37,554 nt of DNA, taken from an uncultured Caryophanales bacterium (GTDB lineage Bacteria; Bacillota_I; Bacilli_A; Acholeplasmatales; Anaeroplasmataceae). Positions 4,968 to 24,150 of this stretch are shown piece by piece. The translations under genes and the position numbers were made by a program. The notes beneath the pieces are model-generated. The model searched no databases and was not told the origin of the DNA. It saw only the letters and a program-made list of their open reading frames with translations. The stretch's first letter is position 1. Every line of letters begins with the position of its first letter. The stretch spans positions 1-37,554 of the forward strand of contig CAMOUB010000005.1 in the NCBI GenBank assembly GCA_946626345.1, written 5' to 3'.

Positions 4968-4987
4968 AATGCGACCTAAATCGCATT
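4968..4987 (-). terminator. Terminator of the P-II / DUF1538 operon, overlapping the last codons
   Basis: AATGCGA-CCTAAA-TCGCATT stem; minus-strand U-run (TTTTCTTTTTTTT) follows. Confidence 0.7.
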
Positions 4988-5404
4988 GTTTTCTTGGTTA
5001 GTAGGATCAGCTATTATTTTGTCCTCTAATTTATCTTCTTCTGGTTCTTTCTTTTTTTCTTCTTTTGCTTCAGATTTTTTCTTTTTTTGTTGATTTAATA
5101 AATTATCTGATGCGTGTGTAACAGGTAATGTAAAGAATATTCCTTGAGCCTCAGACATTGATCCTGCCTTATCATATAATTTTTCTAAAATAGGCTTTAC
5201 TAATGCTTCTTTTACTAAAATAAATACTATTTCTTTTTCAGGGTGTATATCTAATCCATATAATTTAGCTGCCTCATCTGAAACACCACCATTTGCAGGA
5301 ATGATTGTTCCACCCTTTGCACCATTATCTTTTGCAATTTCCATAACATTATCTGAAAAGCCAGAATTTACAACAGCAACAATATTATATAATTTAATAT
5401 CCAT
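4976..5404 (-). CDS. P-II-like regulatory protein with charged C-terminal extension
   Basis: VVNSGFSDNVMEIAKDNGAKGGTIIPANGG ... HPEKEIVFILV resembles P-II (GlnB/GlnK superfamily); Lys/Glu-rich tail. Confidence 0.8.
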   Translation of the reverse strand: MDIKLYNIVAVVNSGFSDNVMEIAKDNGAKGGTIIPANGGVSDEAAKLYGLDIHPEKEIVFILVKEALVKPILEKLYDKAGSMSEAQGIFFTLPVTHASDNLLNQQKKKKSEAKEEKKKEPEEDKLEDKIIADPTNQENNAI

Positions 5405-5406
5405 AA

Positions 5407-5730
5407 TTACTTACCTCCGCGTGATAACATCATATAGCTTTGTGCACCAATTATACTATCTAGTGGAATAGCATATACCATTGATACTTTACTATTAAAT
5501 GTTGCAAATTTATCTTCAATAGCTAATATTGCATCCTTTACATAATTTTCTTTTATGATGCAAAACATTATTCTTTTTGTATATCCTGTATCTAAAGATC
5601 CTCTAGCAACTGTTGTTAAATAAGCAATAACATCAAATTTTTCTAATATATCAGCAATTATCTCTTTTTTTCCTCTAGGTACTGATAATACTAATACATA
5701 TAATCTAGTTAATTTCGTATTCTTTTTCAT
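5407..5730 (-). CDS. P-II-like protein (second copy)
   Basis: Small alpha/beta ORF in a tight cluster with the P-II-like gene and DUF1538 gene; start moved to the ATG after GGTGA. Confidence 0.6.
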   Translation of the reverse strand: MKKNTKLTRLYVLVLSVPRGKKEIIADILEKFDVIAYLTTVARGSLDTGYTKRIMFCIIKENYVKDAILAIEDKFATFNSKVSMVYAIPLDSIIGAQSYMMLSRGGK

Positions 5731-5731
5731 A

Positions 5732-7258
5732 TTAATCACCAAAGGAGATAATTATCTTATCTTCTTCCTTTAATACCTTCTTAATTTCTTTTGACTTCTT
5801 ACGCTTATTACTAAACATTGAATATACACCTAGAATTTCAATAGATAATAATGGGCTTAAAGCTACAAGAGCAACTATACCAAAGCCATATGATAATACT
5901 TCATTTGCCTCATTTAATTGTACACTTATACCTAAAGCTATCGGTAAAATAAAGCTTGATGTTAAAGGTCCTGATGCAACACCACCAGCATCAAAGGCAA
6001 TTGCTGTATAAATCTTTGGAATAAAGAATGATAATATAAAACAAATAATATAACCTGGAACAACTATATATAAAATAGAGAATTTAAATATAATTCTTAT
6101 CATTGCAAGGCTTATTGATACACCAACACCAAAAGCTAGTGTTATTAATAAATGTTTTCTTTTAATTAAGCCATTAGTCATTTCTTCTACTTGTGAAATT
6201 AATATTTTAATTGCAGGTTCTGCAAGTACTGTTAAACATCCAATTACAAATGCGATTAAAATAATCACAAAAGTATTTGCGCTAGACAATTCAAGTCCAA
6301 TAGCAAAGCCAACACCAATATATGTTGAATCTACTGCAGCTAAGAATAATACTAAGCCAATATAGGCAATCATTAAGCCTTTTATCAATTGTAATATCTT
6401 TTTTATTCCAGAATGTAAGAATATAAATTCAATTACTAAATAGCAGGCTAAAAGTAAGCCCATTGATAATCCTACTTCTTTTAATTTAACTAATACAGCA
6501 GTGAAATATGATATAAAGAAATTATCACTTAATTCATAATTTTCAGGCACATAATCTAATGTTTTATTAGATACTAAAGATAATATAAGCATTACTATAA
6601 CTGGTCCAATAGATGAAAATGCGATAAATCCAAATGATGCATCCTGTTCGCTTTTTCTAGCTAATACAGATGCAACACCGGCACCTAGAGCCATTAAAAA
6701 TGGAACAGTCATTGGTCCTGTTGTAACTCCACCTGAATCGAAGCATAAGGCAACTAAATTTTCTTTACCATTATATGCAAGTAGAGCAATTAAACCAAAT
6801 GATACCATATATAATGTACTTAATATTCTAATTAAGTTAATCTTTTTTAATATTTTAAGTAAGGCTAGTAACAAGAAAAAGCCTACTGATAATCCAATTG
6901 AAATAATTATTATTGGTTTATCAAAAATTGTTTTTGTTTGTTCTGCTAAAACTGATAGGTCTGGTTCTGCAATCGTAATAAAGAAGCCAAAAAAGAAAAC
7001 AACCAATAATAAAACCCATTTTTTACCTTGTTTTGTTAATCCCTTACCAACCATTCTACCGATAGGCGTCATGGCATGTTCTGCACCATAATTAAATAGT
7101 GAAATACCTAATATAACAAATATTGTTGCTAATGAAAATGATAAAATTTCATAGCTAGACAAATGAATTACCCTACAAATACATAAAATGATAACTAATA
7201 TATATATTGGTAAAACAGAAAATGAGGATTTTTTTATCTCTGTCAATAATTCCTTCAC
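5732..7258 (-). CDS. DUF1538-family membrane protein with two tandem homologous halves
   Basis: Internal repeat: FDSGGVTTGPMTVPFLMALGAGVA vs FDAGGVASGPLTSSFILPIALGIS; multiple TM segments. Confidence 0.8.
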   Translation of the reverse strand: MKELLTEIKKSSFSVLPIYILVIILCICRVIHLSSYEILSFSLATIFVILGISLFNYGAEHAMTPIGRMVGKGLTKQGKKWVLLLVVFFFGFFITIAEPDLSVLAEQTKTIFDKPIIIISIGLSVGFFLLLALLKILKKINLIRILSTLYMVSFGLIALLAYNGKENLVALCFDSGGVTTGPMTVPFLMALGAGVASVLARKSEQDASFGFIAFSSIGPVIVMLILSLVSNKTLDYVPENYELSDNFFISYFTAVLVKLKEVGLSMGLLLACYLVIEFIFLHSGIKKILQLIKGLMIAYIGLVLFLAAVDSTYIGVGFAIGLELSSANTFVIILIAFVIGCLTVLAEPAIKILISQVEEMTNGLIKRKHLLITLAFGVGVSISLAMIRIIFKFSILYIVVPGYIICFILSFFIPKIYTAIAFDAGGVASGPLTSSFILPIALGISVQLNEANEVLSYGFGIVALVALSPLLSIEILGVYSMFSNKRKKSKEIKKVLKEEDKIIISFGD

Positions 7259-7319
7259 TTAAAACACCTCACAAAAGATTATATAACAAGTTATATAAAA
7301 AATACATAAAAAAATAAAA

Positions 7320-7338
7320 AAGCCACAAAATGTGGCTT
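7320..7338 (-). terminator. Terminator downstream of ddh
   Basis: AAGCCACA-AAA-TGTGGCTT stem with A-rich (minus-strand U-rich) flank. Confidence 0.75.
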
Positions 7339-7343
7339 AATAA

Positions 7344-8321
7344 TTATAATGTATGTTTTAATAATTCAGAATAATCAACTATAGCTAAATCCTTAGGTGC
7401 TATATCGAATACTGTTTTACATCCAAAATCAGCTCTCTTATATAATCTAGCTGCTGCTCTTGCATATGCAACTAAAATAGAACCTGTAAATTCTGGATTT
7501 GAATCTAATTTTAATGAATATTCAATAACATGCTTTACATTATCAGATGTAGAACCTGTTCTAATAACGAATCCTCCATGAGGAATACCATTATGATTCT
7601 TCTTTAATTCTTCAAGTGAAATGAAATTAACTGTTGTATCATAATCAGCAAAATAATTAGGCATTTCTTTAATTTCTTTTTCAATTAAAGCTTTATCTGC
7701 CCCCTCTTTTGCAACAACATAACATAATCTTGTATGCTTTTCTCTTACTGATAATTCAGGGTTCTTACCACTTCTTACAGCCTCTAATGCTTTTTCAACA
7801 GGGCAAGTGTATTGTCTTGCATCAACAACACCATTAATTCTTCTTATTGCATCACTATGTCCTTGGCTTACACCCTTACCCCAGAATGTATAATCCTTTC
7901 CATCAGGTAAGATTGATTCCATAATGCATCTATTAAGTGAGAACATTCCTGGATCCCAACCTACAGATATAATAGCTACATGCTTTGATGCATTTGCACT
8001 ATTATTAACATTATTATAATGTGTAGGCACATTTGCATGTGTGTCAAATGAATCAATAACATTAAAATTCTTTGCAAGCTCTGGTGTCATTTCTGGTAAG
8101 TCAGTTGCTGAACCACCACAAATAACCATAACATCAATTTTATCTTTATAATTTAAAACGTCTTTAATATTTACAACCTTAGCTTTTGATGTTTCAATAG
8201 TTAAGCTTTTAGGATCTCTTCTTGTAAATACTGCAACAAGCTCCATATCGCTATTTTTCTTAATTGCTTTTTCAACACCTTTTCCAAGGTTTCCATATCC
8301 ATAAATACCAATTTTTATCAT
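7344..8321 (-). CDS. ddh: meso-diaminopimelate D-dehydrogenase
   Basis: MIKIGIYGYGNLGKGVEKAI nucleotide-binding start; VGWDPGMFSLNR, FWGKGVSQGHSDAIRRI motifs of Ddh. Confidence 0.93.
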   Translation of the reverse strand: MIKIGIYGYGNLGKGVEKAIKKNSDMELVAVFTRRDPKSLTIETSKAKVVNIKDVLNYKDKIDVMVICGGSATDLPEMTPELAKNFNVIDSFDTHANVPTHYNNVNNSANASKHVAIISVGWDPGMFSLNRCIMESILPDGKDYTFWGKGVSQGHSDAIRRINGVVDARQYTCPVEKALEAVRSGKNPELSVREKHTRLCYVVAKEGADKALIEKEIKEMPNYFADYDTTVNFISLEELKKNHNGIPHGGFVIRTGSTSDNVKHVIEYSLKLDSNPEFTGSILVAYARAAARLYKRADFGCKTVFDIAPKDLAIVDYSELLKHTL

Positions 8322-9726: not shown

Positions 9727-12700
9727 TTATCTTCCAACTTTTTTTAATATTTTATTATTTCTTAAATCTAAATCTGCAACATCAATTAATTCATCTATAT
9801 ATTCTAGATTAGCATTTTCAATTCTAATTGGATTTGCTTTGGCAACACCAATAGTAATTTCAATATTGTATTTAGAATCAATATTAGCTAATCTTTCATT
9901 GATTTTAGTTGAAATTAAATTAATATCCTTATCCTTTGGATAATTTAATAATAATACAAATTCATCTCCACCAAGTCTATATACAAAGCCTTTATATTGA
10001 TTTTTAATATAATCTAATACTTCAGCTATATTCTTTAAGGCCTTATCTCCTTCTAAGTGACCATATGTATCATTAATATCTTTAAAATAATCAGCATCTA
10101 ACATAATTAAATATTGGTCCATATTTATATTAACCATGTCTTTAATCTTTTCAAGACTCATTTTTAATCCTAATCTATTATTTAAATTAGTTAATGTGTC
10201 ATAATAAGCAAGATGCTCTAATGTCTTAATCTTTTCATTTAATCTATTTTCTAATAAAACTGATTTAGATATATCTGTAGTATAAATTGCTATAGATTTA
10301 GAATTATCAGAATTCAAAATTAATTTACATTCAGTTAAGAAGTTTCTTGGTTCATCTTTCATTTCATATCTAGATCTATATTTATAAGTTAACGGCTTAT
10401 AAGGCTCTAATTTTAATAAGCTATCATATTGTAATTCATCATATAATTTTTCTCTTATATCATCTTCTACAACAAATGAGAGATCAAATTTTAAGACCTT
10501 ATTCCAATCATCACTTAGTTTTGTATATTCAATTTGACCATTAACATCTGAAAATTTATGAATTTCACCTGTATCAAGCTCGATTTTAGTTAAATCAATA
10601 AAATCCTCAGTAAATATAGAAATCAATAATTCTTTAAGCTTATTTGCCTCAAGCATTCCTGTGTAATTTGCTCTAATTAATTCTGTATTATCAATTAATA
10701 GGGCAATTAATGTTCTTTCTCCATTCTTTTCTAATATTTGTAATCTAATAGATGTTGAATGTAAGAATTTATCAGGATAATTTTGTCCTAGACAATCATA
10801 TGACTTAATTTCAAAATACTTTATTTGTCCAGGAATTAAATTATCAATTTCTTCTTTAACATTAATATTTGGTTTTTCTATTGCGTTATCTATAAATTCG
10901 CATAATACATCAAATACTGTATTATCTTCAACAATATATGGCTTATTATCTACAGGCTTATAATAACAGCCTTTTTTATCAGTAAAATTATATTTTATTA
11001 TTCTTACTGAAATACCCTTTATGGCAGATAATATTAAGCTTAAAAAATAATTAGTCTCAAGATGAGCCTTAGATATTTCTTCATATGCTAATCTTAATTC
11101 ATTTTGTTTTTTATTATTAGCTGCCCTAATAATATCATTTCTTTTTCTATAAACTACTAAATGTAGAGTTCTTCCTAGCATCTTTAATGCTCTTCTTTCG
11201 GCTAAAGTCCACTTTTTAGCCTTTTTATAATTAATAAATCCTATAGTACCATCAGTATAATTTCCTCTTGTAAGACCATAATATAAAATTGATTTAAATG
11301 GCCTACCCTCAAGAGGAATACCTGGAATTTCAGATAATCCTTCATCATCATATAACATGCATTGTGATATATATTGTTCTAATGTAATAGGCGCTGAAAG
11401 CCCTGTTAGATCATATGCTTTATCCTTATATGCAACATTTGTAAATATACAGTTATCTCCATCTGCAGATGCTATATTTATATATACTGCATCTACATTT
11501 AATTCAACTCTATATTTTTCAAGTAATCTATTAATATCTGAATCCTCTATACTTGCATAATCCTTTGCTATATCTAAAAATTCAGCTATAGCTTCTTCTA
11601 TATGATGAATATTTAAATGATTTAAATTAGGAGTATTTTCAGGTATACAATCCTTTTTACATAGCTTATTAAATTCTTCTATACATAAAGGCTTAGAATA
11701 ATAAAATCCTTGGGCATAATTACAGCCATATTTCCTTAATAACTCAATATATTCATAAGTCTCTACACCCTCAGCTATTGCAGGGATATCTATTGCGTGT
11801 GCTATATCTAAAACTGATTTAATAATATCTTGACTCTTTTTATCATTTCTTGAGAAGAATTTTAAATCAATTTTAATAGCATCAAATTCTACATCCTTTA
11901 ATACATTTAATCCAGAATAGCCTGAACCAAAATCGTCCATTAAAATTTTAAATCCACTTTTTCTTAATTTCATTACAGTATCTTTTATTAATGATACATC
12001 AGAAAAAATACTTTCAGTTATTTCAAGCTCTAAATATTTTTTAGGAACATTATATTTTTCAACTAGATTAATAATATCATCTATAAATGTATTCATAGAT
12101 AAAAATACTCTAGATACATTAACAGATATACCAAATAAAGGTAATTTATTATCCATTCTCCATCTGATATATTTAACTGTTTCTTCCCATACATATCTAT
12201 CTAGCTTATCAATTAAGCCATTTCTTTCAAAGATAGGAATAAATTCACCAGGTGATATAATAGATCCATTTTTACCCCATCTAACTAAAGCCTCGGCTCC
12301 TACTATTTTTTCTAAAATAATATCATATTTAGGCTGTAAGTATATTACAAATTCATTATTCTTTAATGCATTATCAAATGATGAGATATAATTTTGTTCT
12401 AAAGCAACATCTTCTCCAAGCTTATCATCATATTTTAGATATAGAGGTCCAATTATACCTTTAATCTTTTTAGCTGCTAATCTTGCAAAAGATAACATCT
12501 CTTGAATATCTAAGCTATAATTAGTTACTTCATAAACTCCAAATGTTAATTCAATATTATATTCTAAATTAAATTCTTTTATTCCATTTTTAATATTAGA
12601 TATAATATCATTTAAATCTGAATCATTACCATTTAATAAAAAGGCAAAAAAATCTTCAGATAATCTACCATATGTAATATCAAATATAAGGCTTTCAGCT

Positions 12701-13272
12701 GTTAATAGTTTAGATATATATCTTAATACATCCTCTGCATACTTTAATCCAAAGAAATAATGAATCATTGAATATTTATTTATATCAAATATAACCATAT
12801 AAAAATGTTCATTATTTAATCTATTATCTATTCTTTTTCTTACTTCCTTTAATAATGTATCTTCATTATATATTTCACATAATCTATCGAATGTAGGACG
12901 TTCTATTAAGCTTCTTGGATGTGATAAGACATCAATGGCTTCATTGATTCTTAAATTTAATATTTTTTTATCTGATGATAGTTCAACAAAATCATAGGCT
13001 CCAGCGTTAACATAATTTCTTACCATTTTATAATCGATTTTTAAAGAAATAACAATTACTGGTATTAATTCAGTTAAGCTTGATTTTTTAAGTTCAATAA
13101 TAGTATTAATATCATCTGTATAATCTAGGATACATAAAATATTATTTTTTTCTACAATTTGAAAAGAATCATTTAGATTTGACCTATAAATATTAAAGTC
13201 TTTTTCTAATATTTTAATAATATCTTGTTTTACTTCTTCTTTATTTTCGATAATTAAAATATCTCTTAACAT
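9727..13272 (-). CDS. Multidomain c-di-GMP signalling protein: receiver-like domain, degenerate GGDEF, EAL, central sensor region, C-terminal GGDEF
   Basis: EALVRW, LELEITES, DDFGSGYS, AEGVET (EAL); C-terminal RLGGDEF; first GGDEF site reads GRLSEDFF; N-terminal CheY-like ILIIENKEE...ILDYTDD. Confidence 0.88.
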   Translation of the reverse strand: MLRDILIIENKEEVKQDIIKILEKDFNIYRSNLNDSFQIVEKNNILCILDYTDDINTIIELKKSSLTELIPVIVISLKIDYKMVRNYVNAGAYDFVELSSDKKILNLRINEAIDVLSHPRSLIERPTFDRLCEIYNEDTLLKEVRKRIDNRLNNEHFYMVIFDINKYSMIHYFFGLKYAEDVLRYISKLLTAESLIFDITYGRLSEDFFAFLLNGNDSDLNDIISNIKNGIKEFNLEYNIELTFGVYEVTNYSLDIQEMLSFARLAAKKIKGIIGPLYLKYDDKLGEDVALEQNYISSFDNALKNNEFVIYLQPKYDIILEKIVGAEALVRWGKNGSIISPGEFIPIFERNGLIDKLDRYVWEETVKYIRWRMDNKLPLFGISVNVSRVFLSMNTFIDDIINLVEKYNVPKKYLELEITESIFSDVSLIKDTVMKLRKSGFKILMDDFGSGYSGLNVLKDVEFDAIKIDLKFFSRNDKKSQDIIKSVLDIAHAIDIPAIAEGVETYEYIELLRKYGCNYAQGFYYSKPLCIEEFNKLCKKDCIPENTPNLNHLNIHHIEEAIAEFLDIAKDYASIEDSDINRLLEKYRVELNVDAVYINIASADGDNCIFTNVAYKDKAYDLTGLSAPITLEQYISQCMLYDDEGLSEIPGIPLEGRPFKSILYYGLTRGNYTDGTIGFINYKKAKKWTLAERRALKMLGRTLHLVVYRKRNDIIRAANNKKQNELRLAYEEISKAHLETNYFLSLILSAIKGISVRIIKYNFTDKKGCYYKPVDNKPYIVEDNTVFDVLCEFIDNAIEKPNINVKEEIDNLIPGQIKYFEIKSYDCLGQNYPDKFLHSTSIRLQILEKNGERTLIALLIDNTELIRANYTGMLEANKLKELLISIFTEDFIDLTKIELDTGEIHKFSDVNGQIEYTKLSDDWNKVLKFDLSFVVEDDIREKLYDELQYDSLLKLEPYKPLTYKYRSRYEMKDEPRNFLTECKLILNSDNSKSIAIYTTDISKSVLLENRLNEKIKTLEHLAYYDTLTNLNNRLGLKMSLEKIKDMVNINMDQYLIMLDADYFKDINDTYGHLEGDKALKNIAEVLDYIKNQYKGFVYRLGGDEFVLLLNYPKDKDINLISTKINERLANIDSKYNIEITIGVAKANPIRIENANLEYIDELIDVADLDLRNNKILKKVGR

Positions 13273-13440: not shown

Positions 13441-14619
13441 ATGGATAAAAAAGAAACTACCCCAGTAAAAAAGATTTGGGGCTTCATTAAAAAATTTCAT
13501 ATCCATACGATGTTTATAATACTATTTATATATTTTATATTAGTATTAATATCATGGCTAGTTTTAAAATTTACTGGATATAAAAATGAATCTGGTGATG
13601 CCTATTCATTTATAGATGTCTTTTTATGGAATTTCTTAACTGTTGCCGGTAATGATTATATGTTTGTTGATTCAGCGTGGGCAAGAATACTTGGTATATT
13701 ATTCCTATTATTCTCAATGTTTGGTCTATCAGCAATAACAGGCTATATATCATCAGCTTTAGTTGAAAGAAAAATACACAATAAGAAAGGACTTAAAAAG
13801 ATGCAAAATATGAAAAATCATATCATCATTTGTGGATGGAAAAATGATATTAAAATATTAATACTTAGTATATTAAAAAAGAATAATAAATTATCTTTAG
13901 ATGATATTATCTTAATCAATTCTGTTGATGAAAATAAGATGCAAAATATATTAAACGATGAAAATTTAAAGGGAATTAATTACCTAAAGGGTGATTATAC
14001 TGAAGAACAAACATTAATTAACGCAAATGCTAAATATGCATCTAAAGTATTAATTATAGGTGAAAACCATGATAACCTAGATGCAGAGCTTGTAGATTCT
14101 AGAGTATTCGTTTGTGCATTAATGATAAGAAATATCAATCCAAAATGTCATATCTGTGCTGAGGTTAAAACTGAAAGATATAAAAATTATCTAGAAGCAC
14201 AAAATTGTGCTGAGGTTATATATACTGAAGAATATACAAGATATATATTATCTACTTCTACTAATTATAGTGGTATGTCTAAGGTTATGTCATCATTTTT
14301 AGATAATGGTGATGGTATATCAGTTCAAATTCAAAAGCTTGATGATTTATGGGTTGGAAAGAATTATAAAGAACTATTTAATTATTATAAAGAAAAAAAT
14401 ATTTTAGTTTTAGGTATTTTAGAAAATATGGGTGTTGAAAAAGAATTAAAGCATCAAATATTATCTGAAGCTCAAAAATCTACTAATTATGGTGAGATTG
14501 TACAAAAACTTAAAACTGTTAAAGAAATGGAAACTAATTGTCCTAAATTAAATCCTAATGACGATTATATAATTAATAAAAATTCAGGAGCTATAATACT
14601 TGGGGAGGAATCTAGATAA
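13441..14619 (+). CDS. 2TM potassium-channel-like protein with cytoplasmic RCK (TrkA_N/TrkA_C) domains and atypical pore filter
   Basis: Two TM segments flanking a P-loop (FLWNFLTVAGNDYMF), then HIIICGWKNDIKILI RCK Rossmann motif and TrkA_C-like C-terminus; overall MthK-like layout. Confidence 0.8.
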   Translation: MDKKETTPVKKIWGFIKKFHIHTMFIILFIYFILVLISWLVLKFTGYKNESGDAYSFIDVFLWNFLTVAGNDYMFVDSAWARILGILFLLFSMFGLSAITGYISSALVERKIHNKKGLKKMQNMKNHIIICGWKNDIKILILSILKKNNKLSLDDIILINSVDENKMQNILNDENLKGINYLKGDYTEEQTLINANAKYASKVLIIGENHDNLDAELVDSRVFVCALMIRNINPKCHICAEVKTERYKNYLEAQNCAEVIYTEEYTRYILSTSTNYSGMSKVMSSFLDNGDGISVQIQKLDDLWVGKNYKELFNYYKEKNILVLGILENMGVEKELKHQILSEAQKSTNYGEIVQKLKTVKEMETNCPKLNPNDDYIINKNSGAIILGEESR

Positions 14620-15101
14620 TGACAAATTTTGAAATATTAAAATCAATTCCTCTTCTATCTAATATTAAAGATGAAGATTTAATGGCATTAACTAAATTAG
14701 TTAAGGAAGAATCATTTAATGCAGGTAGCAATATTATTACTGAAGGTGATTATGGTAGTGTAATGTATATATTAACTGATGGTGTAGTTGATATTATTAA
14801 AACTACTATTTATAAAGACCAATTTGTATGTGCGACCCTTGATTCAAAATCACATGCGATGTTTGGTGAAATGGCACTTTTAGATAATGATAAAAGATCA
14901 GCAACAGTTAGGGCAAAGTCTGATTGTAAGACATTATCAATTAATAGTGAATCATTTAATAAATTCTTAGATGAATATCCTAAGGCTGGTATTATATTAC
15001 TTAAATTTATGAATATTAATTTAATTAGAAATATTAGAACAGAAAATGATAATCTAAGATTAGTATATCAAGCACTAATTGAAGAAATCGAATCAAATTA
15101 G
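14619..15101 (+). CDS. Stand-alone cyclic nucleotide-binding domain protein
   Basis: Phosphate-binding cassette FGEMALLDNDKRSATVRA; no DNA-binding or kinase domain in 160 aa; TAATG overlap with channel gene. Confidence 0.88.
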   Translation: MTNFEILKSIPLLSNIKDEDLMALTKLVKEESFNAGSNIITEGDYGSVMYILTDGVVDIIKTTIYKDQFVCATLDSKSHAMFGEMALLDNDKRSATVRAKSDCKTLSINSESFNKFLDEYPKAGIILLKFMNINLIRNIRTENDNLRLVYQALIEEIESN

Positions 15102-15111
15102 AGGTGTTATA

Positions 15112-17550
15112 ATGCATTATAAAGTTGATGAACTACTTCTTTTGGAAATAGCTACTTATTTTTCTGATATAAGTCCATTTAAAAGAATTATAGATACAAA
15201 AGCAAAAACAATTGAAGAATATATAAATGAATTTAATATTGATGAGATCATTGATGATAAAGATTATGCTAATTTAATGAATGGATATGATTTTAAAAAT
15301 ATCTTAGAAGCATACAAGAATAACAATAGAATATTAGAAGCTAAAATATATGAAGCACATCTAGATGATGCCTATGGTGCTGGTGGTGGTATTTCTGTTG
15401 TCTTTATAAATGATAAATTAAATGAGGCAGTTATAACCTTTAGAGGTACTGCATCAAATGAATGGATTGATGATTTTGTTGGTGCTAACCAAGTTGATTC
15501 CCTACAACAAATTAATGCCTTAGAATGGTATAAAATGGTATATCAAAAGCTTAATTTAGAAAATTATTATGTTACTGTTATAGGACATTCAAAGGGCGGA
15601 AATAAAGCTAAATATATAACTATATTGAATGATACAGTAAATAGATGTGTATCATTTGATGGTCAAGGCTTCTCTGATAAATTCTTTGAGGAATATAAAA
15701 ATCAAATAATTAAAAGACAAGATATAATTGAAAATCATAATATCGATTATGATTATGTAAATATATTAATGAATGATGTAGGTAAAAAAACATATTATGT
15801 TGGGTTTGATTATGGACGTGGAGGATTTGCTGAAAGCCACTGTCCTAATACATTCTTTAACTTCTATGATAAAGGAAAATATAATATGCAAATAAATCCT
15901 AATGGCCAAAGACCTGAAATGCAAATTTTAGATCAATTCATTAATTCTATGATTCGTTCTGCCATAAACGAAAAGGAACGTAGTGAAAACAATAAGCTTG
16001 TAGGATCTTTAGTTGAAAAAGCATTCCAAATTGGCGCTCCTGGTAATTCTTTCCAAGAATATGTATCTTATTTAGTTGATATGCTAGGAGATCCTAATTA
16101 TGTTGATAATGCAGCATATTTATTAACATATTGTATTAAATATTCACATCAAAATCCTGATTTTTTAAATGCATTAAGAGATATAATGATTCATTTTAAA
16201 TCTGAGGGTGTAGTTAAAATCATTGATATGCTAGATGATTTAGTTAATTCTAAGAAATTAAATGCATTAATTAATTTATCTAATTTCTTAATATTACATG
16301 TTAATAAAATCGTTGTTAAAAAGATTCAATCAATTGCTAAAAAGAAATATGATGTAATATTATCTAAAGAACAAATCCAAAAGGTATTACAAGTAATATC
16401 TATGACTAAAGGTATGCTAAAAACATTAGAATTAAATATGGATGGTTCTGATATTGAATTAGACAAGATAGATTTAGATTTAGAATTTAAATTACCTGAA
16501 AATTTAAATATTGTTGTTCTTGCAGGAGGCCTATCTAATGAAAGAAATATTTCTTTAAATACAGGTGTATTTGTTACAAATGTATTAAAGGAAAAGGGCC
16601 ATAAGGTAATATTATTAGATTCTTATATGGGCTATAGTGATAATGAATTAATGATTGAAAATGCCTTTCTAGATCCTGATAAATATTCATTAGAACCTAA
16701 TTTAATTACTGATGCCTTACCAGATTTATGGGCTGTTAAAAAAAGACGTATGGATCAATCTAATTCTTATTTTGGTCCTAATGTATTACAAATATGTAGA
16801 CAATCAGATTTAGTATTTATAGCATTACATGGAGCAGAGGCTGAAAATGGTAAAATTCAAGCAACATTTGACCTACTTGGTATAGATTATACAGGATGTG
16901 ACCACTTCTCTTCTGCAATATCTTCTAATAAAAATGTTTCAAAACAAATATTTATAGATAATGGTATTCCTGTAGCTAAAGGATATTTAATTAAAAAAGG
17001 CGAAAAAATTAAAGAGCCAATGGATAACAATATTAATTATCCTGTTATTATTAAACCTAATAACGGTGGTATAGGTCTTGGTATAACAGTTGCTAACGAT
17101 AAAACTGCATTCCTAAAAGCTATTAAAGAAGGCTTTAGATGGGATAATGAAGTTTTAGTTGAGGAATTTATAACAGGAAGAGAATTCTCTGTAGGTACAA
17201 TTGATGGAAAAGCATTACCTGTATTAGAGGTATTACCTTTAAAAACTAAAGAGGCTAATCAAGGAATGACTCTAGGTGGAGAAAAACAAAAAATATGTCC
17301 TGCAAATATATCAAAGGAATTAACTAAAAAGCTAATGGAAACTGCTGAAAAAGCATCATATATTTTAGGATTAAAAACATATTCAAAGACAGATTTTATA
17401 TTAAAAAATGATGGTTCATTTATATGTCTTGAATGTGATTCATTACCACACCTAAATCCTGATTCTCAGCTTGTAGCTGAAGCAAATGCGAATAATATAT
17501 CATTCGCAGATTTCTGTGAAAAAATTATTACAATAAGCTTAACAAAATAA
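15112..17550 (+). CDS. Fusion: Mbeg1/DUF2974-like alpha/beta hydrolase, helical linker, D-alanine--D-alanine ligase-like ATP-grasp
   Basis: GHSKGG nucleophile elbow with FDGQGF and ESHCPN; C-terminal AGGLSNERNISLNTG, ALHGAEAENGKIQATFDLLGIDYTG, EEFITGREFSVG. ATG 15112 with RBS GAGGTG preferred over 15079. Confidence 0.85.
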   Translation: MHYKVDELLLLEIATYFSDISPFKRIIDTKAKTIEEYINEFNIDEIIDDKDYANLMNGYDFKNILEAYKNNNRILEAKIYEAHLDDAYGAGGGISVVFINDKLNEAVITFRGTASNEWIDDFVGANQVDSLQQINALEWYKMVYQKLNLENYYVTVIGHSKGGNKAKYITILNDTVNRCVSFDGQGFSDKFFEEYKNQIIKRQDIIENHNIDYDYVNILMNDVGKKTYYVGFDYGRGGFAESHCPNTFFNFYDKGKYNMQINPNGQRPEMQILDQFINSMIRSAINEKERSENNKLVGSLVEKAFQIGAPGNSFQEYVSYLVDMLGDPNYVDNAAYLLTYCIKYSHQNPDFLNALRDIMIHFKSEGVVKIIDMLDDLVNSKKLNALINLSNFLILHVNKIVVKKIQSIAKKKYDVILSKEQIQKVLQVISMTKGMLKTLELNMDGSDIELDKIDLDLEFKLPENLNIVVLAGGLSNERNISLNTGVFVTNVLKEKGHKVILLDSYMGYSDNELMIENAFLDPDKYSLEPNLITDALPDLWAVKKRRMDQSNSYFGPNVLQICRQSDLVFIALHGAEAENGKIQATFDLLGIDYTGCDHFSSAISSNKNVSKQIFIDNGIPVAKGYLIKKGEKIKEPMDNNINYPVIIKPNNGGIGLGITVANDKTAFLKAIKEGFRWDNEVLVEEFITGREFSVGTIDGKALPVLEVLPLKTKEANQGMTLGGEKQKICPANISKELTKKLMETAEKASYILGLKTYSKTDFILKNDGSFICLECDSLPHLNPDSQLVAEANANNISFADFCEKIITISLTK

Positions 17551-17551
17551 T

Positions 17552-17598
17552 AAAAAGACAGTTAGAATTCTATATTTTAGGTTTCTAACTGTCTTTTT
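17552..17598. terminator. Bidirectional terminator between the two convergent signalling operons
   Basis: AAAAAGACAGTTAGAA / TTCTAACTGTCTTTTT perfect 16-bp stem. Confidence 0.9.
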
Positions 17599-17605
17599 TA
17601 CTTAA

Positions 17606-20155
17606 TTATACTTGAAAATAATAATAAATATCATACATCTTTGATGGATCACTCTTAGATACTAATCTAATTTTTTGGCCAAAATCAAGTGTAATATTTT
17701 TATTATCAACCATAACTAATGTTTCTTCACCAGATTTATAAACATTATAATCACTAATATCTATATCAAATGTAAATCCTGGATAATTACCATTATTTGA
17801 ATATTCATCAATTTGATATGAATCATTATCACTATTATATGAGAATACTAATCTATTATCTCCTTCTGTTTCATATATTGATTTAAATATTAAATTATTA
17901 TTTGATTCAATTATATCAATGCTTGAAATATTAGAATTCAAATAGAAATCATTTGACATATTCATTGTGGCAATCTTTTTACCAACAACAACATTAAATC
18001 CACTATTCAATGTATATTTATCATTTTGGAAACTATATGATATATAATATCTTCCTTCATTATCAAAATCAATAGAATCTACTACTGCGCCATTTTGAGT
18101 GCCTACTCTTATTTCAATATCTGCTGCTTCAAATGGAATTTCAAAAGTGCTTGTAGCAAATACAAATTCTAATTCATTACCTACTGTTGTTATTATCTCA
18201 GGTACTGATGCAGCATCTGTTATTAATGTTTTTGTATTAGATTCAATTTTATATAATCCAAAATTATCATTACTATCATATAATTCAAATTTAGGTTCAA
18301 CATTAATATGTCTATTAGGTATTAAATCAAATCCATTTTTAATTGATAAGAATTCATTTGTATCTTTATCATACCAACCAATAAATGTATATGATGAAGA
18401 ATTATTATCTACATAATTATATGTTAATACCATATGATTAGAAATAGTTGCGTTATTATTTACAATAATATCATTAAATGAACCAGTGAAATCTGAATAT
18501 TCACCATATAGTTCAGCAATATTATCCATTCCTGGCCATACTGCAATTTCATATCTTCCTACTTCTAATGTTAAATTCTTAGATACCTGTTGATTTTCAT
18601 TAAATGAATAAACTAATGAATATCTACCAATACTAGATGTATCAATTGAATCTACATCATATACATTTTCAGTATAAGTATATTGTAATTTATATGATAA
18701 TAATTTAGAAATTAATATATCATCTAATATAACTGTATTTCCTGTATTATTATCACTAAGATAGAAGCTTATTTTTGGTAAATCGTTACTTGAACCAATA
18801 TCATAAAACTTTTTAGTCATTACTTTACTTGATTCATCTAAGGCATCAAATTCAAAATATCTATTAGATTTATCAATATAAATAGCTTTAATTTTAATAG
18901 ACTTTGTAGGTGTAAATGAATATGTCTTATCAGTTGATATTAGGTTTTGTTTATTATTAGTTATATCATACCAACCAATAAATAAATATTTATCATCACC
19001 TGTATATTCCATAGTTATTTTATCTTTTACATCATTTAATGTCTTAGCTGAATTAATATATGAATCATTTACTTTAACCATATTATCATATGTAGATGAA
19101 TTTACTTCTACATTAATTGCATCTTCTTCATAAATTGGTTCAATTAAGCATGATTCTTTTATATTTAATTCTAATATTTCACCATTAACTTCTTTATTAT
19201 TAACTAACCATTTTTTAACTGAATATCCATCTTTATTTTTAGCTGTTGCCTTAATTGAATATTCTTTATTGCTTTCATATTTAAATACACTTCTTAATAT
19301 AGTATTTTTATTTTCTATAACATCAAATGTTGAATTAATAGATATAACTCTATTAAATCCTTCATCATGATTTGTAGGTATTTTTCTTAAGATATCTTCA
19401 ATATCTTCTAATTCTAATTCTCTAAATACTATTTCTAATATATTTTTAGAATCATAATCTTTTAAATCATTAATTACTGTTGTATTAGATTCTTTAATAT
19501 CATTAATTGCGTTTGTTAAATTAGTTCCAGTTAAAGAATCATCTATAGAGGCATACATTGATAATTCTTCCATTGGATTTAATACAAATTTTGATGCTTC
19601 TATATTACCATCAACATTTTTTATCGCAAAAATTTCAATCTTACCTTCTACTAAAGAATATGTAGTTCTTATTTTACCATCTTCATTATAGACACTAACA
19701 CCAAATGTTGTACCTCTAATTGCCATTGTTGAATTAGGTGCTTCAACATCGAATTCTTCTAAATCAGATAATTTATTTTTAACCTCAGTAACAATACTTC
19801 CCTCATTTACTCTAATTACTGTTTTTGTTGAATCCTTTTCACTAGATGTTAAATCAATTGAAGAATTGTTACCTATATAAATATATTTATCTAAATCAAG
19901 CTTTAATATGGTATGTGAATCATCTTTTGTTTTTATATTATCTCCATTTTTAAGATTCATACCTTTATATGCTTCATTTTCTTTATTATTTCTATTGATT
20001 AATACATTACCATCTATTTCTTGGATTTGGATTGTTCTAAATCCTTTTTCTTTTGGTTTATTATTTAAAATAATAACTGTTACAATTATTCCTACAATAA
20101 TTAAAACTGCAGCAATTATAGATGATATTAATATTATCTTTTTCTTTTTATCCAC
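17606..20155 (-). CDS. Membrane-anchored FecR-domain protein with InlB/Listeria-Bacteroides-like repeats
   Basis: N-terminal TM; FecR-like VLINRNNKENEAYKGMNLKNGDNIKTKDDS ... NSTMAIRGTTFGVSV; repeated FIGWYD(I/K) units. GTG start in TAGTG overlap with upstream gene. Confidence 0.8.
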   Translation of the reverse strand: MDKKKKIILISSIIAAVLIIVGIIVTVIILNNKPKEKGFRTIQIQEIDGNVLINRNNKENEAYKGMNLKNGDNIKTKDDSHTILKLDLDKYIYIGNNSSIDLTSSEKDSTKTVIRVNEGSIVTEVKNKLSDLEEFDVEAPNSTMAIRGTTFGVSVYNEDGKIRTTYSLVEGKIEIFAIKNVDGNIEASKFVLNPMEELSMYASIDDSLTGTNLTNAINDIKESNTTVINDLKDYDSKNILEIVFRELELEDIEDILRKIPTNHDEGFNRVISINSTFDVIENKNTILRSVFKYESNKEYSIKATAKNKDGYSVKKWLVNNKEVNGEILELNIKESCLIEPIYEEDAINVEVNSSTYDNMVKVNDSYINSAKTLNDVKDKITMEYTGDDKYLFIGWYDITNNKQNLISTDKTYSFTPTKSIKIKAIYIDKSNRYFEFDALDESSKVMTKKFYDIGSSNDLPKISFYLSDNNTGNTVILDDILISKLLSYKLQYTYTENVYDVDSIDTSSIGRYSLVYSFNENQQVSKNLTLEVGRYEIAVWPGMDNIAELYGEYSDFTGSFNDIIVNNNATISNHMVLTYNYVDNNSSSYTFIGWYDKDTNEFLSIKNGFDLIPNRHINVEPKFELYDSNDNFGLYKIESNTKTLITDAASVPEIITTVGNELEFVFATSTFEIPFEAADIEIRVGTQNGAVVDSIDFDNEGRYYISYSFQNDKYTLNSGFNVVVGKKIATMNMSNDFYLNSNISSIDIIESNNNLIFKSIYETEGDNRLVFSYNSDNDSYQIDEYSNNGNYPGFTFDIDISDYNVYKSGEETLVMVDNKNITLDFGQKIRLVSKSDPSKMYDIYYYFQV

Positions 20156-21597
20156 TATAATCCCTCCTGCATATTAGAAAAGTGATTAACTAATGTATAA
20201 TCTAGTTTTCCTTCTTTTACCATTTCATTTAAAATGAATAAAGCCTTATCCTTTGGCATAGGCTTTTTATATGGCCTATCTGTCGATATAAGTGATTCAT
20301 AAATATCTACTATAGTTATTATTCTAACTAATAGAGATAATTCATTATCAGATTTATGGTTTGGATAGCCTGTTCCATTTAAATATTCATGGTGATTACA
20401 TGCGATATCTTTAACATGCATATATTTTTTACCAAAATTAATATTTCCTAATATTTCTTTAGTATATATAACATGCTTTTCAATCTCTTCTCTTTCTAAT
20501 TTAGTTAATGTACCTTTCTTTATTAATGCATCTTCTAATTCATTATCATCTAAGATATTTAATATGCCATATTTTGTATCATATGATTTATTCTTAATTA
20601 ATTCTATATATTTTAAATCCTTTTCATCTAAAAATGACATTTTATCTAATTTAATAATAAATTCTTTAACGTCTTGAATGAAACTCTTTTCTTTTTCATA
20701 TTCTTCCTTAGATAATTTATGATTAAAATAATCATTACAAATACATGAATCAATTAAATCATATCTTAATAGCATATTATCTAATTTTCCTTCAAATCTT
20801 GTTGCCTTATTTAATATATTTAAAGGAATAATCATTTTACCTACATCATGTAGCATTGCTGCTAGATATAGTTCTTCTTTTTCACTATCTTTAATTTCAT
20901 ATCCATGATTATTTAAATAATCTATAAATGATATACATATTCTTGCAACATTTATAGTATGAAAAGCATTATATGGTGTTCTAGATTCAATTGCTTTAAC
21001 CATTGCATTAACAAATGAATCTAATAATTCCTTGATATTATCATATAATTCCATATTATTTAATAATATACCTGATAAAGATGCTAATGAATAAATAATC
21101 TTTTCTATATCCTTAGAAAATTCAATTATTTCATTATCCTTATATGCATTTATTAATTGCATTACACCAAGGACATTATTATCTCTATCTAATAGTGGTA
21201 ATACTAATACAGATTTAGTATGATATCCTGTAATAGAATCATATTTTTTAGGACCATCAAAATTATATTTAGTATCAGTATATACATCAGCTACATTTAT
21301 AATAGTCTTTTCTCTTGCAGATAATGCTGCAACACTTTGGCTTAAAATATTAACAGGTGGTAAATCAATTTCATTTATATTACCACCATTTTTTATATTT
21401 AATGATTTTGTTACCATAAAGAAGAATTTTAATTCATCATTATCTAATAGGTATAGAGTTCCTCCATCTGCATTAGATATTTCCATTGCTTCTTCTAAAA
21501 TATCAGTAAGTAATTTTTTATAATCATGTTCTTTAGATAATTTTATAGTGATATTTAATACCTTTTGTAAATCTTTATTCAAAAGCATTAAAACCAC
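20155..21597 (-). CDS. GAF domain plus HD-GYP phosphodiesterase-like protein
   Basis: GAF-like N-terminus (ISNADGGTLYLLDND), HDVGK, NHHEYLNGTGYP, DIYESLISTDRPYKK. Confidence 0.87.
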   Translation of the reverse strand: MVLMLLNKDLQKVLNITIKLSKEHDYKKLLTDILEEAMEISNADGGTLYLLDNDELKFFFMVTKSLNIKNGGNINEIDLPPVNILSQSVAALSAREKTIINVADVYTDTKYNFDGPKKYDSITGYHTKSVLVLPLLDRDNNVLGVMQLINAYKDNEIIEFSKDIEKIIYSLASLSGILLNNMELYDNIKELLDSFVNAMVKAIESRTPYNAFHTINVARICISFIDYLNNHGYEIKDSEKEELYLAAMLHDVGKMIIPLNILNKATRFEGKLDNMLLRYDLIDSCICNDYFNHKLSKEEYEKEKSFIQDVKEFIIKLDKMSFLDEKDLKYIELIKNKSYDTKYGILNILDDNELEDALIKKGTLTKLEREEIEKHVIYTKEILGNINFGKKYMHVKDIACNHHEYLNGTGYPNHKSDNELSLLVRIITIVDIYESLISTDRPYKKPMPKDKALFILNEMVKEGKLDYTLVNHFSNMQEGL

Positions 21598-22348
21598 CAG
21601 CCTTTAAATAATTAATAGAATTCACTGTTTTTTCATAATCACTAATTTCAATTAATATTGTAGTATCATCAGGTAATTTATTAATATATTTAAATGCTTC
21701 TTCAAAATCTAAATTACCAAGACCTAATTCTTGATGTGAATCAACAATTCTATCATTATCATTAATATGAATATGCTTAATATAATTACCTAATACTCTA
21801 AACCATTCCTTTAATTCAACATCAGATATTGATGCGTGTGCTATATCTAGACATACACCAATTCTTTTGTTGTTAATAGATAACATTAATTCTCCTAATA
21901 AATATGGATTTAAATCAAACATATTTTCTACATAAATATCAATATTTGGGTATTCTTTTATAAGCTTTAAAAAGATTTCTTTATGAACATTCACCCAATT
22001 ATTTCTATATTCCTTAGTTTTCATCCAAGTGATATAGTTTGTATGAAATATAACTCCCTTACAATTCAATTTTTTAGCTATTTCCATAGAGGACTTAACT
22101 CTTAAATATGAAACATCTTTAATTTTAGGATCAACTGAATCAAGGCAAATATCATAAAATACACCATGTAATGTATCATTTGTTCTGCCTAAAATTTTAT
22201 ATTGATTTATAGTTTCATCTAATTTAGCTTTATTATCTAGTAATAAAGGATTATAAAATTCATTATATTCAAATCCTAAATTATATTTTTTAGCTAAATC
22301 GAGATATTTATCTATTTCATTTATATTTGGAATAACATAATATCTCAT
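21575..22348 (-). CDS. Xylose-isomerase-like TIM-barrel protein (sugar phosphate isomerase/epimerase / AP endonuclease family 2 superfamily)
   Basis: YVENMFD, CLDIAHA, IKHIHINDND, DSHQELGLGNLDF, LIEIS metal-site motifs. Confidence 0.83.
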   Translation of the reverse strand: MRYYVIPNINEIDKYLDLAKKYNLGFEYNEFYNPLLLDNKAKLDETINQYKILGRTNDTLHGVFYDICLDSVDPKIKDVSYLRVKSSMEIAKKLNCKGVIFHTNYITWMKTKEYRNNWVNVHKEIFLKLIKEYPNIDIYVENMFDLNPYLLGELMLSINNKRIGVCLDIAHASISDVELKEWFRVLGNYIKHIHINDNDRIVDSHQELGLGNLDFEEAFKYINKLPDDTTILIEISDYEKTVNSINYLKAGGFNAFE

Positions 22349-22350
22349 AT

Positions 22351-24150
22351 TTACTCCCCCTTAATCCCAATAACTTTATAAGTTATAACTTCTTTACTCT
22401 TTCCTTTTAAAGATAATCCTCCAATGCATATTGCATCTATTCTATCTTTAACGCTATTATATAACTCCTCAGAAATTAATATTTCACCTGCTTTAGCATT
22501 TGCTTCTAATCTAGCTGCAGTATTAACTGTATCACCTATAGCTGTATAATCAATTCTTGTTTTAGAACCAATATTTCCAACTACTGCATATCCTGAATTA
22601 ACTCCAATACCAAATGATACATGCTTACCAAATCTTTCCATTGCTATTCTATCTATTTCTTCTGATCCTTTAGCAATTAACCAGGCAGCCTTAACTGATT
22701 TAAATTCATAATCATCTAAGTCAAATGGTGCATTAAATATAGCCATTGTGGCATCACCAATAAATTTATCAAGTGTACCTCCAACAGAGAATATTGAATT
22801 AGTTGTTAATGTTAAATATTCATTTAAAATAGATACAACTGCTTCTGGTTCTAATCCTTCTGATAAAGGAGTAAATCCTCTAATATCTACAAATAAACAA
22901 GCAATATGTCTTTTTTCTCCACCAACGTTTACTTTATAATCTACATTTTTAAGTGCCTTATCAACAACTTGTGGTGCGACATATTTTTTAAATACATTTA
23001 CTGTTTTAAATCTAGTTACTAATTCTTCACCATATTTAAATCCTATATAAGCTATATAAGTAATTATTAACGCTAATATTAAATCCATAAATGGATAATA
23101 TATCTTATTTACATATAATAATGTTTGAATTCCAAGCAATATTCCTATTGATAAAATTTCAGATACTGAAGATATTATTATATTTGATCTAAATATTAAA
23201 TATGCAAATAGTACTAATACTATAAATATTACAAAAGTCATTAAAATATTATTTGCATCAACTAATGTATCAGATCTTAAATATGCATCTATAATATTTG
23301 CATGAATAGTAACTCCATATGCTAATTTAGATGATTTAATTGGTGTATAATAATTATCTTGTAATATTGCAGCATATCCACCAATTAAGACAATTGAATC
23401 TTCTATATCAAATAAATTAATTTTATCATTATAAACATCTGAAAATGATACTACTGTATATCCATCATTTGGTAATGTTGCATAATTAAATCTATAAGCT
23501 TGGTTAGGAGCATATTTATTTTTATTCAATCCAAGCATATTGGTATACATATCGTAGATTTTATAAGAGAAGGATGTATATGTATTACCATCATATTGCA
23601 TTAAAGGTACAACCTTTCTTGCAATTCCATCTGATTTATCTAAAAATGAATCTGTATAGCCATATTCTGTAGTATTTGCTAAATCCTCATATGGTAATAA
23701 CTCTCCTTTTACCTTTGAGGTAGCTGTAAACTTTTCATTATTAATGACAAGCCCAAAGTCTAGCTTTGATCCTACAACTACATTTTTATCTTTACAGGCA
23801 TTCACTAATTCTAAATCATATTCTGGATGTTCTTTTGTTTCACCGCTAAAGACAACATCTATTCCTATTACTGCTGGGTTATATTTATTTAAATTATTTA
23901 TAACCTTAGCATAATATCCTCTATTCCAATCATCATATCTACCTAATTCTTCAATGGATTTGTCATCAATTGCCACTATAAATATGTTAGTATTTTGTGC
24001 TTTTGGCCTTTGATAAATCCTATCCATAAAAAAATTGTTTAATCCATCAAAGGCAAAAGCAACATGAAGAAATAAGAAAAAAAATGAAATTGTTAGAGAA
24101 AAAATTACTCCCTTGATTCCTCTTTTTGTGATTATTTTTTTCATAAACAT
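22351..24150 (-). CDS. CHASE2-domain class III adenylate cyclase
   Basis: CHASE2 (FIVAIDDKSIEELGRYDDWNRGYYAKVINNL...IGIDVVF), TM cluster, cyclase CLFVDIRGFTPLSE, TLDKFIGDATMAIF, RIDYTAIGDTVNTAARLE. Confidence 0.92.
   Translation of the reverse strand: MFMKKIITKRGIKGVIFSLTISFFFLFLHVAFAFDGLNNFFMDRIYQRPKAQNTNIFIVAIDDKSIEELGRYDDWNRGYYAKVINNLNKYNPAVIGIDVVFSGETKEHPEYDLELVNACKDKNVVVGSKLDFGLVINNEKFTATSKVKGELLPYEDLANTTEYGYTDSFLDKSDGIARKVVPLMQYDGNTYTSFSYKIYDMYTNMLGLNKNKYAPNQAYRFNYATLPNDGYTVVSFSDVYNDKINLFDIEDSIVLIGGYAAILQDNYYTPIKSSKLAYGVTIHANIIDAYLRSDTLVDANNILMTFVIFIVLVLFAYLIFRSNIIISSVSEILSIGILLGIQTLLYVNKIYYPFMDLILALIITYIAYIGFKYGEELVTRFKTVNVFKKYVAPQVVDKALKNVDYKVNVGGEKRHIACLFVDIRGFTPLSEGLEPEAVVSILNEYLTLTTNSIFSVGGTLDKFIGDATMAIFNAPFDLDDYEFKSVKAAWLIAKGSEEIDRIAMERFGKHVSFGIGVNSGYAVVGNIGSKTRIDYTAIGDTVNTAARLEANAKAGEILISEELYNSVKDRIDAICIGGLSLKGKSKEVITYKVIGIKGE

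Follow-up and report, generated by a model that had tools for sequence, protein, structure and literature searches.

The window analysed here, a stretch of 37,554 nucleotides from an uncultured Caryophanales bacterium of the Anaeroplasmataceae (contig CAMOUB010000005.1 of assembly GCA_946626345.1), harbors a locus of seven open reading frames (ORFs) that encode the predicted parts of a cyclic AMP (cAMP) signalling system, among them a class III cyclase, a cyclic-nucleotide-binding domain (CNBD) protein and an ion channel. The host genome is a metagenome-assembled genome (MAG) of 1.43 Mb and 76% completeness and will be denoted G000 within its genus of 27 genomes (G000-G026). The seven ORFs form two tight convergent arms, with three genes on the plus strand in the order channel, CNBD protein and fusion enzyme, and four genes on the minus strand, transcribed in the order CHASE2 cyclase (24150-22351), TIM barrel protein (22348-21575), GAF-HD-GYP protein (21597-20155) and FecR protein (20155-17606). 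Pfam matches are found to Slo-like_RCK/TrkA_N, cNMP_binding, Mbeg1-like hydrolase plus Dala_Dala_lig, FecR, GAF plus HD_5, AP_endonuc_2 and CHASE2 plus Guanylate_cyc, and the positions and, at the level of Pfam, the domains proposed in an earlier reading of the letters alone (the sequence-only reading) hold. Its description of the arms as tightly packed is borne out by the overlap of the channel stop with the CNBD start (TAATG at 14617-14621) and by minus-strand junctions with overlaps of about 20 bp or gaps of 2-3 bp. The arms meet, as had also been claimed, at one bidirectional intrinsic terminator with a 16-bp stem (~17552-17598, both strands). Folding of its 16-bp arms yields -23.5 kcal/mol on the plus and -21.0 kcal/mol on the minus strand (z = -8.7 and -7.6, respectively) and 0/200 shuffles are equally stable; the terminator at the junction is real and bidirectional. 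A chimeric assembly at this point was considered and judged unlikely because GC is uniform and the terminator sits exactly on the junction; it is also countered by the UvrC of the right flank, which is 84% identical to that of the sister genomes G003 and G025.

The cyclase (599 aa, 22351..24150, minus strand) carries a CHASE2 domain (Pfam E=2e-41) N-terminal to the class III catalytic domain (Guanylate_cyc, E=2e-21), and its nearest solved structure is P. aeruginosa CyaB (E=6e-34). An alignment of ~40 relatives displays the motifs FVDIRGF, DKFIGD and DYTAIGDTVNTAARLE. The adenylate-type residues, namely the lysine of DKFIGD and the threonine of DYTAIG, both metal-binding aspartates and the transition-state asparagine and arginine, are found in nearly all relatives, and because the lysine and threonine are of the adenylate type, the residues indicate ATP as the probable substrate.

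The first gene of the plus arm (13441..14619) encodes an ion channel of 392 aa with two transmembrane (TM) helices, a pore helix and an RCK domain (Slo-like_RCK, E=4e-15). By sequence it matches MthK with E=1e-6, and its AlphaFold2 model, which is of moderate confidence (mean pLDDT 69), matches MthK in Foldseek with E=1.7e-12 and also resembles Slo2.2, GsuK and the gating ring of LjCASTOR. The Pfam, PDB sequence and Foldseek matches together identify it as a predicted 2TM-RCK protein of the MthK type. Its selectivity filter reads TVAGNDY instead of TVGYG, with GNDY invariant in 9/9 homologues, and a K+ channel filter of the TVGYG type is found in none of these nine. TVGY is the filter of ordinary 2TM-RCK relatives in the class, and among distant relatives filters of the TVGY type or of the AGN/PGN/PNA type occur. 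The filter of CASTOR, A-D265-S(A)-G-N-H-A, is devoid of TVGYG as well (PMC6697748). The channel shares the TM-pore-TM plus RCK fold with MthK, GsuK and Slo as well as with CASTOR/POLLUX, and its AGN-type filter, with the GN in common, resembles that of CASTOR, but the acidic residue follows directly after GN, the position of CASTOR Asp265 is not acidic and the channel has a CNBD partner. In a 395-genome sample of the class, no channel with this filter was found except in G000 and G019; among 120 related genomes the channel is confined to nine, from the genus of the window and from a family denoted f2.

Directly adjoining the channel lies the gene of a free-standing protein of 160 aa (14619..15101, plus strand; PF00027, E=1e-18), which according to Pfam contains a CNBD alone. 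The CNBDs of PKA, PKG and HCN are among its best solved matches. Its phosphate-binding cassette, FGEMALLDNDKRSATV, is intact in 9/9 homologues, with GEMA and KRSAT kept in 9/9, and is of the predicted cAMP type; the protein is found solely beside the channel, again in 9/9. The cyclase and the CNBD had both been noted as the only ones of their kind seen in the window. For the cyclase this extends to the whole MAG, where it is the sole PF00211 match and the sole class III cyclase, but not for the CNBD, a second, CRP-sized CNBD protein of 219 aa being encoded on contig C90 of the same genome. SthK and MlotiK1 are bacterial cyclic-nucleotide-gated K+ channels with a fused CNBD. Like these, the locus combines a pore of the tetrameric type with a CNBD of the cAMP type, while it differs in having the CNBD as a protein of its own (160 aa), an RCK domain in the channel and the filter TVAGNDY, not TVGYG.

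The earlier claim that cAMP from the cyclase acts on the CNBD is supported by the ATP-type residues, the putative cAMP-type cassette and a related operon in Clostridia. Cyclases 39-43% identical to that of the window are found in 27 loci from Lachnospiraceae and related Eubacteriales records, and in 14/27 the gene directly upstream of the cyclase encodes a CNBD-SpoIIE phosphatase (L070:8804-14686 from Eubacterium sp. MSJ-21 as well as L064, L065, L068, L069, L071-L073, L076, L080, L085, L087, L089 and L090, some of which end before the last genes). Where the contig reaches, these operons continue with an RsbW-like ATPase, STAS and GGDEF; FecR is located upstream, and a TIM barrel gene is present in several. 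Because CNBD-SpoIIE adjoins the cyclase in quite different bacteria, the cyclase family is again tied to a CNBD effector, and the Clostridial operon independently supports a putative output from cAMP to a CNBD. With CNBD-SpoIIE, HATPase and STAS the Lachnospiraceae operons resemble Rsb-type modules (RsbU/V/W), whereas the window has neither SpoIIE nor STAS and its output would be the channel. Within the genus of the window, G008 keeps SpoIIE-HATPase and STAS genes beside the cyclase and bridges the channel version and the SpoIIE version of the cyclase loci.

A class III cyclase and a CNBD protein are also common to Pycsar, and the locus might be conceived as a Pycsar-like anti-phage pair in which the CNBD or channel answers cCMP, cUMP or no nucleotide and the channel kills or depolarises the cell. 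The distribution is indeed patchy and mobile, and with PADLOC the cyclase domain is hit by PycC models (E=4e-27) and the CNBD by PycTIR models (E=9e-13), but these matches fall on common domains. Lacking the pyrimidine-selecting residues of PycC (PMC11224242), the cyclase possesses the adenine-type Lys/Thr pair together with a CHASE2 sensor, and its relatives accompany FecR, phosphatase/STAS and GGDEF regulators. Furthermore, the CNBD of Pycsar effectors comes joined to TIR or TM parts, whereas here it is a separate protein. Pycsar membership was rejected on the cyclase residues and the architecture, and an anti-phage function of this kind is considered highly improbable.

On the input side, the last gene of the minus arm (17606..20155) encodes a membrane-anchored extracellular FecR-domain protein of 849 aa with a repeat region (FecR, E=9e-9), and most genomes of the genus encode a FecR homologue immediately downstream of the cyclase. 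Among the Pfam matches of the window there is neither an extracytoplasmic function (ECF) sigma factor nor a TonB receptor, and the FecR domain alone is common to the FecR anti-sigma system. The FecR protein adjoining the cyclase looks more like a part of the extracellular input, and the proposal that HD-GYP and FecR provide a second output stays speculation. Behind the cyclase-FecR pair, the majority of genomes in the genus encode lipoproteins of 2000-2600 aa that carry leucine-rich repeats (LRR) of the BspA type (L094, L096-L101, L104), which are absent from this place in the window. In S. meliloti, the CHASE2 cyclases CyaD1/CyaD2/CyaK form with Clr a cAMP pathway that reportedly responds to an external signal from the host and includes the FecR-domain surface protein SMc02177 as a regulon member (PMC5498481, PMC13001267). 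The likeness consists in the CHASE2-cyclase architecture and in a FecR-domain surface protein; the output in S. meliloti, however, is a CRP-type transcription factor, whereas the window, which stems from a different phylum, has the FecR gene next to that of the cyclase and a channel as partner of the CNBD.

The third gene of the plus arm (15112..17550) encodes a fusion of 812 aa, in which an alpha/beta-hydrolase (GHSKGG) and a helical middle part are joined to a D-Ala-D-Ala-ligase-like ATP-grasp domain (Pfam); ATG 15112 is a likelier start than TTG 15079. The GHSKGG motif is invariant in every homologue covering it. The C-terminal half matches DdlA with E=2e-44 by sequence and E=5e-25 by Foldseek, and where a Ddl_N match is present in a genome of the genus it is a single one, borne by the fusion or by a stand-alone protein. 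Both observations would suit a genuine envelope enzyme, i.e. a peptidoglycan precursor or recycling ligase, with the island regulating wall synthesis. In the ligase site of the window fusion, however, the K-Y loop is gone and GSS reads GGI, while R and N are replaced by K and D, respectively. The metal-site D/E is missing in G008 and differs in G002 and G013; the full set of residues of a functional D-Ala-D-Ala ligase (GSS serine, K-Y loop, Arg and metal D/E/N) is therefore not present in the fusion. The fusion of ~800 aa occurs in 11 genomes of the genus and, as an N-terminal fragment at a contig end, in a twelfth (G006), whereas a stand-alone Ddl of ~335 aa is used by five, the walled sisters. 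Genes of the Mur ligase family (Mur_ligase_M) number 0-1 in the fusion genomes, where they are FolC-sized, as opposed to 4-6 in the sisters with stand-alone Ddl, and the low count holds even at 98-99% completeness. Because the MurC-F ligases are missing, the fusion-bearing species are predicted to be wall-less.

With substrate residues and some metal ligands lost and a host without MurC-F, the fusion is a putatively repurposed enzyme and not one of envelope synthesis. As a wall enzyme it was ruled out by the absence of MurC-F and the loss of the active site, regulation of wall synthesis by the island is accordingly rated very unlikely, and the label "envelope-type" given to the fusion in the sequence-only reading is misleading. 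The C-terminal half has the fold of Ddl but differs from Ddl and MurC-Ddl fusions by its alpha/beta-hydrolase partner, its eroded site and its host. Outside the group, a 392-genome sample of the phylum gave Ddl-domain matches only, except for G000 and G019, and the hydrolase half was absent in the four loci of these matches that were checked. Ten further genomes of the genus have neither a Ddl_N match over threshold nor the fusion; one of them, G021, retains Mur ligases. Walled species (4-6 Mur ligases) and wall-less species thus stand together in the genus of the window, which agrees with the mixture of both described for the Anaeroplasmataceae (PMC10868615).

Between cyclase and FecR protein the minus arm encodes a TIM barrel of the AP_endonuc_2 (xylose-isomerase-like) type (257 aa, 21575..22348; E=3e-24), the solved relatives of which are uncharacterised proteins, and a putative GAF-HD-GYP phosphodiesterase (480 aa, 20155..21597) with the architecture of the solved 4mcw (E=8.5e-34). 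The latter displays the HD and GYP motifs in the variant HHExLNGxGYP, with DG changed to NG in the genus and the canonical DG in f2. A GAF domain that binds cAMP was considered for this protein; PDE-type GAFs are among its matches, but the NK...F...DE motif is incomplete (LINA...FSKDIE). The TIM barrel adjoins HD-GYP in most loci read; the TIM barrel alone was seen beside the channel in G019 and G020. The seven-gene set had been proposed without the adjacent divergent gene of an EAL plus GGDEF protein (1181 aa, 9727..13272, minus strand; Pfam), the membership of which is uncertain. The EAL-GGDEF protein possesses a receiver-like N-terminus, its gene being divergent from the channel. As this gene is likewise located next to the plus arm of G025 (65% identity) and GGDEF proteins end the Lachnospiraceae operon, the minus arm might instead be a cyclic-dinucleotide sensing circuit of HD-GYP and EAL-GGDEF to which the cyclase is incidental. 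We hold this to be quite unlikely, given that the cyclase-FecR pair is kept where HD-GYP and EAL-GGDEF lie elsewhere and that G000 and G025 are the only genomes in which an orthologous EAL-GGDEF gene was seen next to the plus arm.

Co-occurrence was assessed in the 120 related genomes, with Fisher tests within the genus and within its wall-less members. A full-length cyclase is present only in the genus and in f2, all genomes with channel plus CNBD also have the cyclase (9/9), and the TIM barrel is present in 14/27 genomes of the genus. Within the genus, p amounts to 5e-6 for fusion and TIM barrel, 3e-5 for cyclase and TIM barrel, 8e-5 for fusion and cyclase, 1.6e-3 for channel and cyclase and 3e-3 for channel and fusion; among the wall-less members the corresponding values are 3e-4, 1e-3, 2e-3, 9e-3 and 0.017. 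The fusion changes at least five times on an rpoB tree of 22 rows (two odd rows left out), and cyclase and TIM barrel change in the same way in 4-5 of five independent pairs and the opposite way in 0; the nearest species by rpoB, G003 (91% complete), is devoid of all of these genes. The parts co-occur well above chance, and so do the two arms in related genomes, where independent occurrence was not what was found.

The arrangement of the parts varies. G025 keeps the left context (EAL-GGDEF, 2-hydroxyacid dehydrogenase and Ddh) together with the plus arm and has the cyclase on another contig. In G008 and G009 the fusion is close to, and directed away from, the FecR, cyclase, HD-GYP and TIM barrel genes. 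Divergent pairs are formed by TIM-HD-GYP and the fusion in G010 and by the TIM barrel and channel plus CNBD in G019 and G020. The f2 genomes G055 and G059 contain the minus arm in the order of the window, with one extra gene before FecR, and the plus arm on a different contig. A TIM barrel gene lies within 10 kb of the fusion or channel in 4/10 lineages and within 10 kb of the cyclase in 5/11, for which a simple binomial with a genome of 1.6 Mb gives chances of 7e-5 and 1e-7, respectively.

Comparison between window and f2 yields 64-66% identity for fusion and channel, 52% for UvrC and ~68% for RpoB, and many pairs within the genus are only 50-63% identical in the fusion at 75-86% in RpoB. These sequences make a clear case that the module has moved horizontally between lineages, including across families. 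A second cyclase-FecR-LRR set of f2 is found in L093 (G059:C55), and its cyclase copy, G059b, falls inside the clade of the genus. An RNase J gene and its neighbour, side by side in G011 and G013, are separated in G014 by the channel, CNBD and fusion genes, which gives the impression of an inserted cassette (L108, L228, L229); in both G011 and G013 this RNase J gene also has TIM-HD-GYP beside it.

Alternatively, two or three independent mobile units, namely channel-CNBD-fusion, CHASE2 cyclase-FecR and TIM-HD-GYP, might have been gathered in the same wall-less gut hosts by a common niche or common transfer and not constitute one pathway. The arms are apart in most genomes, and the transfer of fusion and channel as well as the position of G059b agree with separate units. 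Against them speak the Fisher values within the wall-less members, still 3e-4 to 9e-3 for fusion-TIM, cyclase-TIM, fusion-cyclase and channel-cyclase, the recurrence of TIM-HD-GYP beside genes of both arms and the CNBD effector that is co-operonic with this cyclase in Lachnospiraceae. A mere gathering of units is therefore regarded as somewhat unlikely.

Taken together, the data are best described by a horizontally mobile cAMP signalling module gating a non-canonical cation channel in wall-less gut Bacilli, a reading to which we attach moderate probability. The membrane-bound CHASE2 adenylate cyclase, probably assisted by the FecR surface protein, and by the giant BspA-type LRR lipoprotein in sister species, would turn an extracellular cue into cAMP, which would bind to the free-standing CNBD protein. 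By acting in trans on the RCK gating ring, the latter may control cation flux through the channel encoded beside it. The fusion would be an effector linked to this relay, probably a hydrolase acting on lipids or esters, with the former Ddl domain serving in binding or regulation, and GAF-HD-GYP and TIM barrel may form a paired unit of nucleotide turnover or an effector unit. Gene content, motifs, linkage, co-occurrence and the lack of MurC-F are shown by the sequences, from which we infer cAMP as product and ligand, the contact between CNBD and channel, and the ion species. A role in ion or volume homeostasis, the weakest step, is plausible; it is suggested by the loss of the wall together with the Na+/H+ exchanger, TrkA_C and MgtC genes that adjoin the cyclase in G008, G009 and G002.

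Several observations weigh against this cAMP-channel module. The two arms are adjacent and convergent only in the window genome and shuffled in relatives, so that the single two-operon island of the sequence-only reading is not conserved as a unit, its parts being scattered or reordered elsewhere. Channel and CNBD are missing from 6/12 fusion-bearing genomes of the genus and from five cyclase-bearing ones, in which the cyclase must therefore have other effectors, and in G010 (98% complete) TIM-HD-GYP and the fusion are present without a cyclase. Only a small number of informative pairs underlies the sign tests, p<0.05 being out of reach with them alone, and several genomes are incomplete MAGs, a caveat that all absences carry. 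Finally, the filter is not of the K+ type, and the selectivity of the channel is not readable from sequence.

CHASE2 cyclases with a FecR pathway member, channels with a fused CNBD and 2TM-RCK channels are already known. Neither a channel whose CNBD is encoded by a gene of its own nor a hydrolase-Ddl fusion in wall-less species was found in the open-licence literature, in which not every combination was targeted. To our knowledge, cAMP signalling is poorly documented in Bacilli, and no description of it in wall-less Bacilli was found in a search of the open-licence literature. If correct, the proposed module would provide a cAMP-gated channel with its sensor in trans, a direct test of the coupling of external cues to ion flux in wall-less cells, and a cell-wall enzyme retained and repurposed after the loss of peptidoglycan. 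More tentatively, and with less than even probability, the locus may be seen as a volume or ion circuit that arose after wall loss and spread horizontally, with an outward-facing cyclase, a cAMP sensor as separate subunit of a channel whose pore is neither of the K+ nor of the CASTOR type, and a coupled hydrolase whose regulatory domain would be a captured, dead ligase of cell-wall synthesis. The Lachnospiraceae operon, which ties the cyclase family to an RsbU-type phosphatase, suggests cAMP-controlled partner switching and would predict it in common gut Clostridia.

Further upstream in the window (4976-8321), a P-II-like protein is encoded near a DUF1538 membrane protein, followed by a diaminopimelate dehydrogenase in this genome predicted to be wall-less.

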